49,154 nucleotides of DNA from a virus, in IMG/VR virus record IMGVR_UViG_3300035670_000325, positions 1 through 49,154 of that record. One strand, given 5' to 3'. The notes under the pieces are model-generated. The model was not told the DNA's origin. It saw only the letters and a program-made list of their open reading frames with translations, and ran no database searches. Shown one piece after another: positions 283 through 49,154 of this stretch. The position numbers and the translations under genes are program-made. Position 1 is the first letter of the stretch; the number at the start of each line of letters is the position of its first letter.

Positions 283-311
283 TTGACAAGATATATAATA
301 CTTTGTATAAT
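283..311 (+). promoter_or_regulatory. Strong sigma-A/sigma-70 promoter for the rightward arm
   Basis: TTGACA (283-288) and TATAAT (306-311) are separated by exactly 17 bases, a perfect consensus. Transcription should begin near 318 and run into the leader at 318-586 and then the structural operon. The short ORF overlapping this site is therefore not credible as a gene. Confidence 0.85.
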
Positions 312-437: not shown

Positions 438-483
438 ACAACTACCTACGGTAGTTGTAATAAAACTCTAACGAGTTTTATTA
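438..483 (+). promoter_or_regulatory. Two tandem perfect hairpins in the rightward leader
   Basis: Stem 1 is 438-446/450-458 (9 bp, loop TAC). Stem 2 is 458-468/473-483 (11 bp, loop TAAC). They sit back to back in the 5' leader between the 283 promoter and the first gene. No T-tract follows, so simple termination is unlikely. Antitermination, mRNA stabilisation or protein binding are possible. The minus-strand leader at 26901-26992 has a similar row of hairpins. Confidence 0.6.
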
Positions 484-547
484 TGAATAAATAATTAAAT
501 ATATAAAATACTTAAAACACTAACAACACTTATAACACTATAGTATT

Positions 548-3506: not shown

Positions 3507-5426
3507 TTGAAACGATCTTTTGTATTCGGTAAGAAAAACAAAGAAGTCAAAAACATAGAACAAGAAGATGCTGAAATGAAATTAGTTCAAGATATACAAA
3601 TGAAATTTGACGATGCTAGAAATTCTAAGAACTCATTTGTTTCGACTTGGGATGATTGTATTGATGCTTATAATTCTGATTACTTTGTAAATCTTGATAG
3701 ACCAGACTATAAGTCTGATGAAATATCTAATTTCATATTTGCAACAATAGAAACTATTAAACCAATAATGGTTGATAATAACCCCAAAATTGTTGTATTG
3801 CCAAAAACACCAGATGGTTTAGAGTTATCTGATGAAATACAAGACATATTTGATTACGAGTGGAAACGTGAAAAGATGAATAGGACATTGCAACAAGCTG
3901 TCTCTATATCTTTACAAATCGGTACTGCTGTATTTGGTGTATTTTGGAATCAGAAAGATGAAGGTGTTGGTAATGTTAATGTTAAACTTATAAACCCATA
4001 CAATATATTTCCAGACCCAATGGCTACATCAATAGATGATGCAGAATATATTATATATGCTACATATAAACACGTAAATCTTTTGAAAAAACAATTTCCT
4101 AAAGTTGCAGATAAAATCATAGCAAGTGAAGTTAACTATGATGAACTTATATCAAATGGTCAAGATTCATCAAATGTTAATAATCAAGTTCTTGTTTTAG
4201 AATGTTACATGCGTGACTACACAACTATAGAACACGAGGAAGTTGATGAAGAAAATAATAAAGTAAAAAAGAAAAAAATGAAATATCCAAAGGGAAGAAT
4301 ACTTACAGTAGCACCAGAACTAAACTTGATTTTAAGTGACAAAGCAAATCCATATAACGATGGTAAGTTCCCATTCTTGTTACTTAAATGCTATGACGTT
4401 CCGTTTCAGTTTTGGGGTAAAGGTGAGATTGAGCAATTGCTTTCTCCACAAACTTACATAAATGATTTGATGAATCAAATAATTGACAACGCAAAACTAA
4501 CAGCAAATATGCCTTGGATAATTGATAAAAATAGTGGTATTGGTAAAGGTCAATTAACTAACAGACCAGGCTTAATTGTTAGAAAGAATCCTGGTACTAC
4601 AGTTGAAAGAAAACAACCACCACAGATGCCTGTATATGTGCAGGAAACTATTGAAGTTTTAAAGAGAGATATAGAAATTATATCTGGTGTACATGATGTT
4701 ACGCAAGGTAGAAAACCCGGAAGCGTTAGTGCCGCTGCTGCTATAATAGCATTACAAGAAGCAGCACAGGCAAGAATAAGGCTTAAGGTTAAGGTAATGG
4801 AACAGTCCTTGTCAGATTTGGGATTAATGTGGTATAATAGAATTAAACAATACTGGATAACAACAAGATGGATTCGAGCATTTGGTGAGAACAACGAAAC
4901 AACGTTTATAGAGGTTAATCCAGATAAATTGCAGGAAGATTTTGATTTTGTTATTGAAGCTGGTAGTACAATGCCTACAAACAAAAATGCTATGCTTGAT
5001 TTGATGATACGTTTAGCACAAACACCAGCAGAAGATGGTTTACCAATGGTGGATAGAGAAACGGTATTATCTTACACTAACGTTCCAGACCGAAAGAAGC
5101 TTGTTACAAGATTTGCAGAATTAACCGGCATGCAACAACAACAAGCACAGGCACAACAAGAACAAGCCATGATGATGCAACAACAAGAAATGCAACAGCA
5201 AATGATGATGGAACAACAAAAGATGCAACAACAAGCAGAGATAGATATTCAAAAAGAGCAACAGAAAGCATTGATACAACAAACAGCTAATACAAATCAA
5301 CAAATAACAGACGAACAAATACAAGCAGTACTGGATATGTTAGCTAATGACCCACAACTAATGGCTCAATTACATACAGCAATGCCTGGTATGGAAGATG
5401 AAGATTTGGCTAGAGATTTATTCTAA
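3507..5426 (+). CDS. Portal protein
   Basis: The 639-residue portal forms the dodecameric ring through which DNA enters and leaves the head. Recognition rests on the N-terminal acidic helical region, the middle part with NPYNIFPDPMA and YINDLMNQIIDN, the helix-rich GKPGSVSAAAAI-type region near residues 405-420 and the position after terL. The C-terminal 100 residues are a Gln/Met-rich helical tail, which has produced long antisense shadow ORFs. Start is a TTG at 3507 with GGGGGTGA eight bases upstream; no better ATG exists nearby. Confidence 0.9.
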   Translation: MKRSFVFGKKNKEVKNIEQEDAEMKLVQDIQMKFDDARNSKNSFVSTWDDCIDAYNSDYFVNLDRPDYKSDEISNFIFATIETIKPIMVDNNPKIVVLPKTPDGLELSDEIQDIFDYEWKREKMNRTLQQAVSISLQIGTAVFGVFWNQKDEGVGNVNVKLINPYNIFPDPMATSIDDAEYIIYATYKHVNLLKKQFPKVADKIIASEVNYDELISNGQDSSNVNNQVLVLECYMRDYTTIEHEEVDEENNKVKKKKMKYPKGRILTVAPELNLILSDKANPYNDGKFPFLLLKCYDVPFQFWGKGEIEQLLSPQTYINDLMNQIIDNAKLTANMPWIIDKNSGIGKGQLTNRPGLIVRKNPGTTVERKQPPQMPVYVQETIEVLKRDIEIISGVHDVTQGRKPGSVSAAAAIIALQEAAQARIRLKVKVMEQSLSDLGLMWYNRIKQYWITTRWIRAFGENNETTFIEVNPDKLQEDFDFVIEAGSTMPTNKNAMLDLMIRLAQTPAEDGLPMVDRETVLSYTNVPDRKKLVTRFAELTGMQQQQAQAQQEQAMMMQQQEMQQQMMMEQQKMQQQAEIDIQKEQQKALIQQTANTNQQITDEQIQAVLDMLANDPQLMAQLHTAMPGMEDEDLARDLF

Positions 5427-5476: not shown

Positions 5477-5750
5477 ATGTTATTAAATGGACACTTAACA
5501 GTACAACCATTTTACAACATGGAAGGTGATGTTGGCGGTGGAAGTGGAGCATCTGAACCAACAAGCAATTCTATGCAAAGTGGTGAAGGAAATGTTCAAC
5601 CGACACAGCAAACAGAAAATACTGGTGTAAACACAGGTGTACCAGACACCACAAAACAACCTGTTAATGAGATAGATATTGATGGTTTCGGTAGAGTTAA
5701 AATTGACGAACTTAAAGAGTGGAAAAATGGTTATATGCGTCAATCAGACT
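5477..5750 (+). CDS. Scaffold protein, exon 1
   Basis: Exon 1 encodes the first 91 codons plus one base of a 273-residue scaffold-like protein. The N-terminal 60 residues are low-complexity (Gly/Thr/Gln), followed by EIDIDGFGRVKIDELKEWKN and YMRQSD. Scaffolds at this position usually continue QSDYT.KTQEL, and joining T5750 to A6541 restores exactly QSDYTKKTQEL. Without splicing, the frame ends in a TAG nine bases into the intron (94 residues). AGGAGGATTGAAAAT precedes the ATG. Position between portal and major capsid protein supports the scaffold role. Confidence 0.85.
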
Positions 5751-6540
5751 TAAATGTGTAGGTCTTTTGTAGAGGAAACTTTACATCAAAACTTGGTGAA
5801 AACGGGGAAACTCCTAATAGGTTAAGCTAAGGACAATCCCGTAGGAAGCATCAATCATTTATATCCAATAATGGAGGAAATATAATATGAGAGAAACAAA
5901 AAAGTGGACACGAGAAGAAGAAACGTTTATTTTAGACAATTATACTGATATGGACGATAACGAAATTGCTACTAAATTAAATAGAACGTTTAGAGCAGTT
6001 AGAACAAAACGTCAAAGAATGGGATTGTTTTTATATTTTCAAGAATCTTCTGCACCAATTAAAAACGAACAGTGGCAACGTATTGATGAAAAACTAGAAG
6101 TAAGCAACAAAGGACGTGTTAGAAAAGATGGTGTAAAATATCTCAATCTACACGTTCACAAAACAGGATATGTTATTGTCAGCATTAATGGTAAAAATCA
6201 ATATTTACACTGTGTTGTTTGGAAAGCATTTAATGGTGATATATCAGAAGGTTATGAGTTAGACCATATTGATTGTAATAAACTTAATAATAGTTTATAC
6301 AACTTGGAACTTGTAACACATCAAGAAAATATGAAACGTGCATATCACAATGGTTGTTTTAAAAACTTTTTTGGAAGATGAACCTCTAACGACTATCCTG
6401 CGAAGGAGTACACTCAAGCGAGTGGAAGTGCCAAGCACCCTAACGTAAAGACGAGGGTGAAGATATAGTCTAAACTATATAGTAATATATAGCTGTCATA
6501 AAGACAGGGTGTGATGTAGCGAATCACATTGAATACAATG
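5751..6540 (+). ncRNA. Group I self-splicing intron with HNH endonuclease
   Basis: A 790-base intron splits the scaffold gene. P1 is visible: exon AGACT (5746-5750) pairs with guide GGTCT (5761-5765), giving the required U-G wobble at the 5' splice site. The intron ends with G (6540). The 3' core holds GACGAGGGTGAAGATATAGTC (within 6450-6472), a hallmark of the P7/P3 region, and the 5' core has GGACAATCCCGTAGG (5832-5846). The endonuclease ORF sits in a peripheral loop, so the intron is probably mobile. Splicing removes an in-frame stop and restores the conserved protein sequence. Confidence 0.9.
5887..6381 (+). CDS. Intron-encoded HNH homing endonuclease
   Basis: The 164-residue protein probably cuts intronless scaffold alleles to spread the intron. 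Residues 1-45 form a Myb/SANT-like or HTH DNA-binding region (KKWTREEETFILDNY, with KTKRQRMGL-like basic helix). Residues 60-90 resemble a NUMOD4 motif (EQWQRIDEKLEVSNKGRVR). Residues 105-155 are an HNH_3 nuclease with LHCVVWKAFNG, ELDHIDCNKLNNSLYNLELV and NMKRAY. GGAGG lies ten bases before the ATG. Its codon use matches the phage. It lies wholly inside the intron. Confidence 0.9.
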   Translation: MRETKKWTREEETFILDNYTDMDDNEIATKLNRTFRAVRTKRQRMGLFLYFQESSAPIKNEQWQRIDEKLEVSNKGRVRKDGVKYLNLHVHKTGYVIVSINGKNQYLHCVVWKAFNGDISEGYELDHIDCNKLNNSLYNLELVTHQENMKRAYHNGCFKNFFGR

Positions 6541-7088
6541 ACACAAAAAAGACGCAAGAACTATCAAAATCAAAGAAAGAAATGCAAGAAGCACTTGAAG
6601 TATATAATTACTTAAAGAATAACCCAACTATTGCTCAACAAGTATCTCAAGGTGATGTAACTGGTATTCAAAACAACCCAGCATTTAGTGGTTTAAATCC
6701 AATCAACAACCAAATACAAGACTTAAACTTAAAACTTGCATCTATAGAGTTGGATAACAATATCAATCAATTAAAATCAAAGTATACTGATTTTAACGAA
6801 GTAGAAGTTTTAACTGAAGCCGAAAGATTAGGTGTTACTGATTTGGAGTTTGTGTATAATGCACTACAAGGGAGGAAGATGCCAGATATGAAAGAACAAT
6901 TGAGAAAAGAAATTGAGCAAAGCATTGTAAACAAATTTAAACAAAACGCAATAGAAACAGAAACTATTATAAACCAAAATGATTCCAATACAGCACAGCA
7001 CTCTAAAGTTAATTTAACACCAATTGAGTTGCAGATTGCTGCTAATATGGGTCTAACCCCAGAGGAATACATTAAAGGTAAATCATAA
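6541..7088 (+). CDS. Scaffold protein, exon 2
   Basis: Exon 2 starts with AC, completing the split TAC codon, and gives YTKKTQELSKSKKEMQEALE and the remainder of the 273-residue spliced protein. The segment is mostly charged and helical (EALEVYNYLKNNP, KMPDMKEQLRKEIEQ) as expected for a scaffold, and ends LTPIELQIAANMGLTPEEYI. An internal ATG at 6582 could suggest an independent gene, but there is no ribosome site before it and the upstream codons are conserved-looking. The capsid gene follows 13 bases later. Confidence 0.85.
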
Positions 7089-8091: not shown

Positions 8092-8613
8092 ATGAGCGTA
8101 TGTAAACATTGTAACAACGAATTTGTCAAAAAATCTTATCAACAAGAATATTGCTGTAATGATTGCAAAATTCTAGCTTCTAGAAAGAGAACTTTAGAAA
8201 AGAAACACAATGCACGATACGAAGAATTTGAACAACACAGAATATCAAAATGCCCAGTGTGCGAAAGGGAGTTTGAGAGAGTATTTTCCCCAACATGGAG
8301 ACAACAAAAATACTGTTCTGCTACCTGTAGGAAACGAGTTGAAGTTTTGAACGGTAGTAAAAAAATTACTGATAATTTTTACAAAGATAAGACTAGATTC
8401 AATGGCAACAAACACAACGTTTTAATACGAGATAATTTTGAATGTCAGTTCTGCAAAGCAAAAAAACATCTGGTTATTCATCATTTAGATGGTAGTGGTC
8501 AAAGTGATGACGTTAATAATGAAATGGATAATCTCGTAACACTTTGTAAATCGTGTCACGCAAAATTACATTCGTATATAAACAAGTTTAACAAATCCAA
8601 CAGCACGAGGTGA
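8092..8613 (+). CDS. Free-standing HNH endonuclease with zinc fingers
   Basis: The 173-residue protein contains three Cys clusters: residues 4-26 (CKHC...YCCNDC), residues 55-80 (CPVC...YCSATC) and the HNH nuclease at 110-165 (ECQFCKAKKHLVIHHLDG, NLVTLCKSCHAKLH). The first two resemble zinc ribbons that help DNA binding. It is not in an intron and has its own promoter, as free-standing homing endonucleases do. Its stop codon lies inside the ribosome site of the next gene, suggesting it was inserted between capsid and decoration genes. Confidence 0.88.
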   Translation: MSVCKHCNNEFVKKSYQQEYCCNDCKILASRKRTLEKKHNARYEEFEQHRISKCPVCEREFERVFSPTWRQQKYCSATCRKRVEVLNGSKKITDNFYKDKTRFNGNKHNVLIRDNFECQFCKAKKHLVIHHLDGSGQSDDVNNEMDNLVTLCKSCHAKLHSYINKFNKSNSTR

Positions 8614-47220: not shown

Positions 47221-47472
47221 TTACCACAACAAATCATGTGCACATGATTCGCAATACGTATTATCTAGCAACTTATTACTTAGACAGCCACAATGAGCAC
47301 ATATTTTAACTACACCTTCGTATTCATCATCAGTCCAATCACGTGGTGGTTTTGAATTATTAACTGTTTCATTTTTAACTTGTTGTGCTGAATTGCACGT
47401 ACAAATATCATCACCAATCCAACTACATTTCTCACATTTAACTACACCACTAACCAATACTGATTTAACCAT
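47221..47472 (-). CDS. 83-residue double zinc-ribbon protein
   Basis: The product has two Cys clusters: residues 13-26 (CEKCSWIGDDICTC) and 58-77 (CAHCGCLSNKLLDNTYCESC), each able to bind zinc. A Pro-rich linker (SKPPRDWTDDEYEG) separates them. AGGAGGATGATGTTGTT precedes the ATG. It is the first gene of the leftward arm next to the structured region, so it may be among the first proteins made. A transcription or host-factor adaptor role is plausible but unproven. Confidence 0.7.
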   Translation of the reverse strand: MVKSVLVSGVVKCEKCSWIGDDICTCNSAQQVKNETVNNSKPPRDWTDDEYEGVVKICAHCGCLSNKLLDNTYCESCAHDLLW

Positions 47473-47550
47473 AACAACATCATCCTCCTAGTATATTATA
47501 TTTTTGAGTGATGGGTTTATTTAATGCCCCACAGCATGACAAGTGACTGG

Positions 47551-47976
47551 GCTTGCCTGCCCAGTACTTCCGCTGTGGGTATTTCCCAACCTCAAGGTTA
47601 GGTATGCACAAAAAAAAGAAATTACAAGTTCTTTTTTAAAAAATTTTTGCAGTACTACTAGTTAGTGCTGGGAGCACGATACAATTGGTAGTGCTGTCAG
47701 TGCAGGTGGTTTTCCTGTGCTGTCAGTGCTACCAATTGTATCCGCTTGTGCTGTCAGTGCTTACTAGTAGTTCTCCAAAAAATTTTTAAAAAAGTGCTTG
47801 TAATAGTGAGCCTACAAATTCACGTATTTCTAACGCACAAATTGGCACGTACTCGGCAAGGCACAAACAGCGTTGGAAATACGATGAAGTTGTTGGTGAA
47901 CGGTTCTTTTTTTTGTGGCAAAATAAATCATAAGGTTGGGAAATGCCTACAGCGGTTAGTGCTGGTGCAGGCAAGC
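47551..47976. ncRNA. Large multi-helix structured element (ncRNA or origin)
   Basis: About 430 bases fold into one long interrupted hairpin. Helices: 47551-47560/47967-47976 (10 bp, GCTTGCCTGC); 47572-47591/47934-47953 (TTTCCCAACC core); 47606-47618/47904-47917 (CACAAAAAAAAGAA); 47622-47648/47777-47803; 47654-47662/47763-47771 (ACTACTAGT); 47678-47690/47730-47742 (GATACAATTGGTA, 13 bp perfect). The right arm carries a side hairpin 47823-47836/47870-47883. GTGCTGTCAGTGC is repeated at 47691, 47717 and 47748. ORFs here are artefacts of the dyad. A giant phage ncRNA (GOLLD/ROOL type) or a replication origin fits best. Confidence 0.65.
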
Positions 47977-47985
47977 ACAGGCACT

Positions 47986-48036
47986 ACGCACTCTTAGCGT
48001 GTCAAGCATGGAGTGCTTGAGACGGTTAGAGTGCGT
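47986..48036. repeat. Nested stem-loop ACGCACTCT/AGAGTGCGT
   Basis: A 9-bp outer stem (47986-47994/48028-48036) encloses an inner stem CAAGCA/TGCTTG (48003-48008/48014-48019). It directly follows the large structured element and may be its terminal domain. Confidence 0.6.
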
Positions 48037-48213
48037 TCATGCGTATATATTTCTAGAATATCTATCCAAATCAAACAATTATTTAATACTTGTTTAAACA
48101 TTTGTATGGTTATAAAATTGGTAAATATTATTATGTTCTGATTAAGATTTTCAAAACAATCTAATAACAATCTTTTAAAATATAAGCCATTTTAAGACGT
48201 TTTATATATCTAG

Positions 48214-48266
48214 ATGTAAAAGTATATTAAAATGTATTTAAAGTGGCTTAGAATTAATTCTGATGC
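48214..48266 (-). repeat. 53-bp dispersed repeat, copy 4, with an inverted half-copy
   Basis: The most divergent copy (GCATCAGAATTAATTCTAAG and CCACTTTAAATACATTTTAA on the minus strand). An inverted partial copy, AAAACGTCTTAAAATGGCTTA on the minus strand, lies just to its left at 48183-48203, making a local inverted pair. It is not next to any gene. Confidence 0.55.
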
Positions 48267-48300
48267 GTTTTAGAGGTATTAGAATTTATTAGTTATGGTC

Positions 48301-48318
48301 GTTGATTTTTAAATCAAC
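48301..48318. repeat. AT-rich perfect palindrome GTTGATTT-TT-AAATCAAC
   Basis: An 8-bp perfect dyad with a 2-base centre in the gene-free stretch 48040-48490. Apart from this, the 53-bp repeat and its half-copy, I see nothing else certain in that stretch. Confidence 0.5.
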
Positions 48319-48491
48319 CGAAAGAAAAGTGTAAAGAGTGTTTATTGCCAGAACAAGGTATAGTCCTTTGTGATGGAATTAGTTGATGTGTATTACATCT
48401 GTGATTCGTAGAATGGTTTGATGAACGTATGATAGATGTACTATAGTGTTTGATATAATTATTGTTGTGTTGATAGCGTTGAATAGCACTT

Positions 48492-48790
48492 GATAGTGTT
48501 GATTGTGTTTAGAGTGTTTTGGTTTTAAAAAAACAGAAAAATAAAACTATGATAATGCAATTGATAGCGATAGTGCTATTGTGTTGGATAGCGTGTTTGG
48601 TTTTTAAAAAAAAGAAAAGAGAAATTTGTGATAGTGTAATTATTAGCGATAGTGTTGTTGTATTTGAATAGTGCATTTTGGTTTTAAAAAGAGAAAAGAA
48701 AGCTATGATAGTGTATTGAGTAGTGATAGTGTTGTTTTGTTTGAATAGCGTAGTTTGGTTTTAAAAAGAGAAAAGAAAAAAAATGTGGTT
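48492..48790. repeat. Four tandem degenerate 77-bp repeats
   Basis: Units begin with GATAGTG at 48492, 48569, 48648 and 48725, giving periods of 77, 79 and 77 bases. Each unit holds GATAGTG(T/C)T near its start, a TTGAATAGCG/TTGGATAGCG block, TTTGGTTTTTAAAA, a purine run like GAGAAAAGAAA and a second GATAGTG-like site. Units have diverged but kept period and order. No ORF spans them. They could be origin repeats with an unwinding element, multiple protein sites, or repeated RNA domains. Confidence 0.75.
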
Positions 48791-48796
48791 CTCATC

Positions 48797-48920
48797 CCAA
48801 CACACCTAGCACCTTTAGTACCCCTACACCTCTGTGTTGGACTACACATCTAAGTGTACTGATAGTGTATCTAGTACTGATAGATGTGGCTAGTGCATCA
48901 AACAAGCTTAGGTGTTAGGT
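48797..48920. other. Structured block with alternative pairings
   Basis: Three dyads overlap: CCAACACA/TGTGTTGG (48797-48804/48833-48840), CACATCTA/TAGATGTG (48845-48852/48881-48888) and ACCTAGCACCT/AGGTGTTAGGT (48804-48814/48910-48920, one wobble). The first and third share a base and could be alternative states. It lies between the tandem repeats and the genome junction. Confidence 0.45.
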
Positions 48921-48934
48921 TTAAAAACGATTGA

Positions 48935-48975
48935 GTGTGTCGTGCTTTTCCGACACACGAATGAGTTTTTATTTT
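48935..48975 (+). terminator. Hairpin GTGTGTCG/CGACACAC with T-rich tail
   Basis: An 8-bp GC-rich stem (48935-48942/48951-48958) with an 8-base loop is followed by GAATGAGTTTTTATTTT. On the plus strand it resembles a terminator that would stop transcripts from the repeat region before the 283 promoter. Confidence 0.5.
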
Positions 48976-49027
48976 GTGTTATGGCATGTGCGTGTGCTAT
49001 ACAACACTAAGTGGTACAATACTCAAT

Positions 49028-49154
49028 ACGCACGTGCCTATCAACACAAAATTGTACGCACCCCGGGGTAGCGAAAAGTGTGTAGAGGGGTTTTCAACAC
49101 AGAGTTATGATATATAAAGACATGTTTTACTAACTAGCATGTTTTACTAATTAG
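49028..49154. repeat. Terminal redundancy, right copy
   Basis: Exact copy of 1-127; see the left copy. The region immediately to its left (48976-49027) shows only a GTACAAT/ATTGTAC pairing (GTACAAT at 49015 with ATTGTAC inside the repeat). Confidence 0.95.

Follow-up and report, generated by a model that had tools for sequence, protein, structure and literature searches.

GOLLD and ROOL are phage-encoded RNAs, hundreds of nucleotides long and extensively paired, whose function is unknown; they are often located near tRNA islands (PMC12286853). The element examined here resembles them in all of the former characteristics, but GOLLD and ROOL adopt an ornate, multi-pseudoknot fold, whereas the element is essentially one long interrupted hairpin in a tRNA-free window ("the window" being the whole stretch of DNA analyzed, i.e. 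all 49,154 nt of IMG/VR record IMGVR_UViG_3300035670_000325). The cabRNA of staphylococcal phages is about 400 nt long, rich in hairpins, and derived from terminase genes; cabRNAs in different phages have unrelated sequences and all fold into hairpins, and as CBASS activators they are defined by activation of the CdnE cyclase (PMC10686824). The present element may be likened to these, by analogy only, in its abundance of hairpins and in having sequences unrelated between phages, but it is located in a non-coding gap. Iteron- or hairpin-bearing replication origins of plasmids and phages are non-coding, rich in repeats and hairpins, and situated next to a replication operon. All of this is also true of the locus in the window; however, its 444-nt arm is much longer than the usual single-strand initiation hairpins, and no initiator gene was recognized.

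The original prediction had entertained a relative of GOLLD or ROOL. No part of the window matched any Rfam family at the gathering score, and ARAGORN detected no tRNA genes in it; the proposed kinship was therefore not supported. The Rfam covariance models likewise ruled out OLE and HEARO. A permissive Rfam search of positions 47400-48900 returned only microRNA-type, Listeria sRNA, and snoRNA models, all far below their cut-offs.

Genome organization and the non-coding gap

The source of the window is an uncultivated tailed phage. Because its first 127 bases are identical to its last 127, the window closes into a complete circular genome of 49,027 bp; assemblers frequently use a word length of 127, and the terminal repeat may thus be non-biological. 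The rightward, structural gene arm encodes a Terminase_6C large subunit, a P22/SU10-type portal, and a Mu gpT-like capsid, and the leftward, replication arm encodes a DnaE-type polymerase, a primase, a DnaB helicase, and an SSB-like protein. No named phage turned out to be a close relative; terminases in phage records matched at 34% at best. The two arms are separated by a gap of 2141 nt (47473-49154, continuing at 1-586 over the circle closure) that is without a credible gene. The folded element is located in this gap, 62 nt from the start of the first leftward gene (47221-47472, minus strand), which encodes a Cys-rich protein of 83 aa.

GC skew had been named in the original prediction as a check for an origin. 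The cumulative skew does have its minimum in the gap, and its sign changes there, but gene direction also switches at the gap, such that the signal is confounded. Tandem repeats of 77 bp, containing GATAGTG and the iteron-like TGATAGTGT, adjoin the element. A strong local skew (+0.4 to +0.7) extends over these TGATAGTGT repeats at 48100-48780, and values of about -0.3 follow after 49200. At 34-41 (equivalent to 49061-49068), there is a CCCCGGGG-type palindrome followed by an AGC.AAAA-like sequence; the same combination occurs in the AT-rich gaps of the relatives described below (A6, columns about 1455-1470; L180, about 2760), and it may be a site of packaging or an origin. The leader of the rightward operon is flanked by two inverted operator-like dyads (TGTCTG-N3-CAGACA; 333-347 and 549-563), and chains of perfect hairpins with 3-4-nt loops are found in this leader both in the window (438-485, z -9) and in relatives (L170, about 4400-4690).

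A perfect sigma-70 consensus promoter (TTGACA-17-TATAAT, 12/12; 283-311, plus strand) faces the rightward structural arm. It is the sole perfect one in the window's gap and is positioned 1.3 kb downstream of the element; such a promoter was present in all five gaps studied (the others being at L170:4321, L173:4862, position 4833 of the G014 gap, and L180:3166). Neither a strong plus-strand promoter nor a terminator was found for the element itself, and the count of promoter-like sites in its region was not above chance. From a weak rightward site (ATAACA-17-TATTAT, 9/12; 47471-47499, plus strand), an RNA would start at about 47506, just before the element. The best leftward site, also weak, lies beyond the element (TTGAAA-16-AATAAT, 10/12; 48127-48154, minus strand); a transcript from it would include the element in the replication operon's leader.

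Elsewhere in the window, positions 5741-6580 are probably occupied by a group I intron that contains an HNH/NUMOD4 ORF (5887-6381); the Rfam model Intron_gpI scored 46.2 bits at 6287-6492, slightly below its cut-off of 50, and the interrupted gene is continuous in the related locus L150 (L150:4742-5485). A second HNH endonuclease gene (8092-8613) is located within the structural arm; an ORF of this kind with 90 aa or more is missing from L150 at the matching place.

Anatomy, fold strength, and strand bias

The giant interrupted hairpin that had been predicted at 47551-47976 is real: the co-linear helices, the perfect 13-bp stem, the side hairpin on the right arm only, and three copies of GTGCTGTCAGTGC are all present. 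Its limits had been drawn too narrowly, as the whole element comprises 509 nt of the plus strand (47534-48042) and consists of a closing stem, a giant arm, and a small arm. In the optimum plus-strand fold, the 6-bp closing stem is formed by GCATGA (47534-47539) and TCATGC (48037-48042). The giant arm (47542-47985, 444 nt) abuts the small hairpin (47986-48036, 51 nt, with 23-nt arms that are 87% complementary) with zero unpaired bases between the two. The giant arm is made up of outer arms (47542-47620/47904-47985) and inner arms (47621-47706/47714-47804), and a side arm (47806-47901) emanates from the right side only of a three-way junction. Below this junction, the helices are of 4, 3, 10, 8, 23, 4, 3, and 13 bp, the 13-bp stem (47608-47620/47904-47916) being perfect; above it, helices of 9, 12, 6, 2, 9, 8, 5, 19, and 9 bp lead to a 7-nt loop. 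The GTGCTGTCAGTGC copies had been placed in and beside the apical loop. Their number stood, but not their confinement to that place: with G.U and one central U.U permitted, GTGCTGTCAGTGC is complementary to itself, and copy 1 (47691-47703) pairs with copy 2 (47717-47729), while copy 3 (47748-47760) pairs with 47664-47677.

When the element was compared to its own reverse complement using BLAST, the inner arms matched with E of about 3e-30 and the outer arms with 3e-11. As an inverted repeat, the arms are 75-80% identical; given this divergence of 20-25%, the hairpin was judged not to be an assembly artefact. The GC content of the element is 44%, compared to 32% genome-wide. In keeping with the earlier view that no ORF here is credible, Pfam matched neither of the two frames of 60 aa or more within the element.

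Folding calculations also bore out the hairpin. The minimum free energy of the plus strand as RNA was -269 kcal/mol, compared to -149 +/- 7 kcal/mol for dinucleotide shuffles (z -16.3). For minus-strand RNA, z was -18.5, and the element folded as single-stranded DNA yielded z -23.3; the composition-normalized z-scores do not separate the strands, the minus strand folding as strongly. The kinds of imperfect pairs were also counted. In register, the plus-strand fold contained 17 G.U pairs versus 1 A.C, with the other mismatches being 6 U.U, 6 A.G, 4 A.A, 3 G.G, and 1 C.C; same-base mismatches, chiefly U.U, thus accounted for 14 of the 21, and A.C was nearly absent. When each strand was folded to its own optimum, there were 17 G.U pairs on the plus strand and 3 on the minus strand, a count to be read with the knowledge that an optimum fold prefers registers with G.U. 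Seven of the 17 derive from one repeated 13-mer. After removal of the repeat copies, 10 G.U versus 1 A.C were left in register (binomial p 0.006), and the comparison with the independent minus-strand fold was 10 to 3 (p about 0.05).

An inverted duplication undergoing neutral decay is expected to accumulate A.C and G.U in about equal numbers. Here, G.U was tolerated on one strand only (17 versus 1-3 A.C in the window, and 5 versus 1 in the relatives). The bias favors the plus strand as the folded one. This evidence is moderate, because of the register preference and because a strand-biased mutation (C to T and A to G on the plus strand) would mimic the bias without selection.

Folded elements in related phages

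Relatives were reached using protein baits. The capsid led to L150, and an alignment of DnaB led to four IMG/VR genomes (G012, G013, G014, and G020); the terminase, a YpsA-like protein, and DnaE returned distant loci only. L150 (capsid 68%) is 16 kb long and ends before the gap. The four genomes have terminases at about 53% and the two-arm layout of the window. Among themselves, G012-G014 share 92-95% identity across 3.2 kb of flanking sequence and about 80% across most of the gap.

The window's hairpin was absent from all four, and each of their gaps was non-coding with an excess of structure. Nested long-range complementarity, compared to shuffles, had z-scores of 4.7 (window, right half), 3.3 (G012), 3.0 (G013), 3.8 (G014), and 2.1 (G020); two coding control windows had no such excess. 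In G020, nested complementary arms were observed over about 1 kb of the gap (L180:2345-2362/3338-3353, 2384-2397/3304-3317, and 2487-2506/2998-3018). These are possibly a giant interrupted hairpin of its own, with a nested-arm score of just z 2.1.

A counterpart element was located in the other three genomes (G012, L170:3361-3655; G013, L173:3919-4186; G014, L177:6040-6326, minus strand), about 80-190 nt upstream of the first leftward gene. Because its arms are short, BLAST-type inverted-repeat scans of the relatives did not detect it. It is about 295 nt long and features an 80-nt three-way hairpin followed directly by a closed multibranch domain of ~210 nt, with a closing stem of 17-26 bp and several small hairpins (z -10.0 for the G014 domain). 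No Rfam family was found for the relatives' elements. In the alignment of the three sequences, 98.4% of cells pair, compared to 19-44% with the partners slid. Two compensatory pairs were present (GAGTC-GAA-GACTC to AAGCC-GAA-GGCTT); with just three sequences, two such double changes were matched by 51 of 500 column shuffles, and the signal is therefore suggestive and below significance. A third double change (ACGTGTT/AACACGT to ACGTGCT/AGCACGT) is in a helix that is absent from G013. All five one-sided changes in the closing stem result in G.U on the plus strand; one C.A occurs.

The counterpart is like the window's element in its genomic place, its two abutting hairpins with a three-way junction, and its plus-strand G.U bias, but it differs in length (about 295 versus 509 nt) and in branch order, and there is no recognizable sequence identity. 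A covariance model of the 80-nt hairpin had no match in the window or in G020; a homology of the two, which is plausible, accordingly rests on position, architecture, and strand bias. The presence of a shorter counterpart at the same place suggests that position and architecture persist, whereas sequence and length evolve rapidly.

Candidate explanations

The element is a real one: a large fold, specific to its lineage, within a control region that is itself structured. Because the folds found in this position in the relatives are smaller and dissimilar, the element is probably a structured RNA or a replication element that evolves rapidly, rather than one of the known giant RNAs. The account that we lean toward, tentatively, is that of a functional folded element of the divergent control region in which the plus-strand fold is selected, most likely as a rightward structured ncRNA of ~0.5 kb. 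The observations behind it are where the element lies and how it folds, the G.U bias, and the positional counterpart in the relatives with its two compensatory pairs. The RNA would begin just left of 47534 and run rightward, away from the replication operon, and the working form would be RNA rather than single-stranded DNA; transcription of the element is itself a step that we infer.

A part of a replication origin, acting at the DNA level, is a less likely alternative. A cruciform or single-stranded fold would assist duplex opening or the loading of helicase or primase, with GTGCTGTCAGTGC and the 77-bp GATAGTG repeats serving as initiator sites. The placement of the element at the cumulative skew minimum of the divergent gap, the adjoining tandem and iteron-like TGATAGTGT repeats, the occurrence of GTGCTGT in all five gaps (mostly on one strand), the stability of the single-stranded DNA fold, and the phage's own DnaE, DnaB, primase, and SSB-like protein are all consistent with this. 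However, gene direction confounds the skew, none of the genes was recognized as coding for an initiator protein, and the skew pattern inside the gap does not recur in the relatives (the strong skew at 48.1-48.8 kb is absent from G012-G014). For the last reason, an R-loop origin with a G-rich RNA downstream was rejected. A plus-strand bias would also be unexpected for a duplex cruciform, although it is expected for single-stranded DNA.

It is improbable that the element is a functionless, decaying inverted duplication or a MITE-like foldback insertion. The identity of the arms, the lack of the hairpin itself in the relatives, and a GC content unlike that of the genome would suit such an origin, but the excess of G.U over A.C departs from the near-equality of neutral decay, and the relatives have a folded element at the same place. 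The hairpin is single-copy in this genome, and inspection of its flanks by eye revealed no target-site duplication. Searching the hairpin DNA against phages with blastn yielded chance matches only (best E 0.6), and a 23-mer of the arm had no match in 84,980 prokaryote genomes. A repeat-pattern search of viral contigs returned a single match, taken as chance, in a contig that is GC-rich and reads STDSTDSTD there in a reverse-strand frame. A decayed duplication of a known gene, which the original prediction had raised against itself, was supported neither by the phage blastn search nor by Pfam analysis of the inner ORFs.

Similarly doubtful is a structured 5' leader of the leftward replication operon, in which a minus-strand transcript from about 48120 would fold and regulate the first leftward genes at the level of translation or stability: the 10/12 leftward promoter-like site beyond the element, the strong minus-strand fold, and the 62-nt distance to the first gene agree with it, but G.U is scarce on the minus strand (3 versus 17), the relatives' five stem changes are A.C on that strand, and no leftward promoter is conserved in the relatives.

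The original suggestion of a large structured element, maybe of a new class, was upheld in part by the fold, the G.U bias, the lack of an Rfam match, and the counterpart with its two compensatory pairs. A new group of plus-strand structured RNAs of ~300-510 nt, produced from the divergent control region of a group of tailed phages, in which place, abutting-hairpin architecture, and pairing are kept and sequence is almost wholly turned over, is a possibility that we hold more loosely. Should the element instead prove to be an origin, its hairpin would be of unusual length for a replication start site, in a phage group for which no cultured representative was found. Large phage RNAs are usually discovered through conserved sequence, which leads to an Rfam family; an element that keeps its place and pairing without its sequence would escape such discovery, and would provide a clear means of testing whether selection acts on structure alone.
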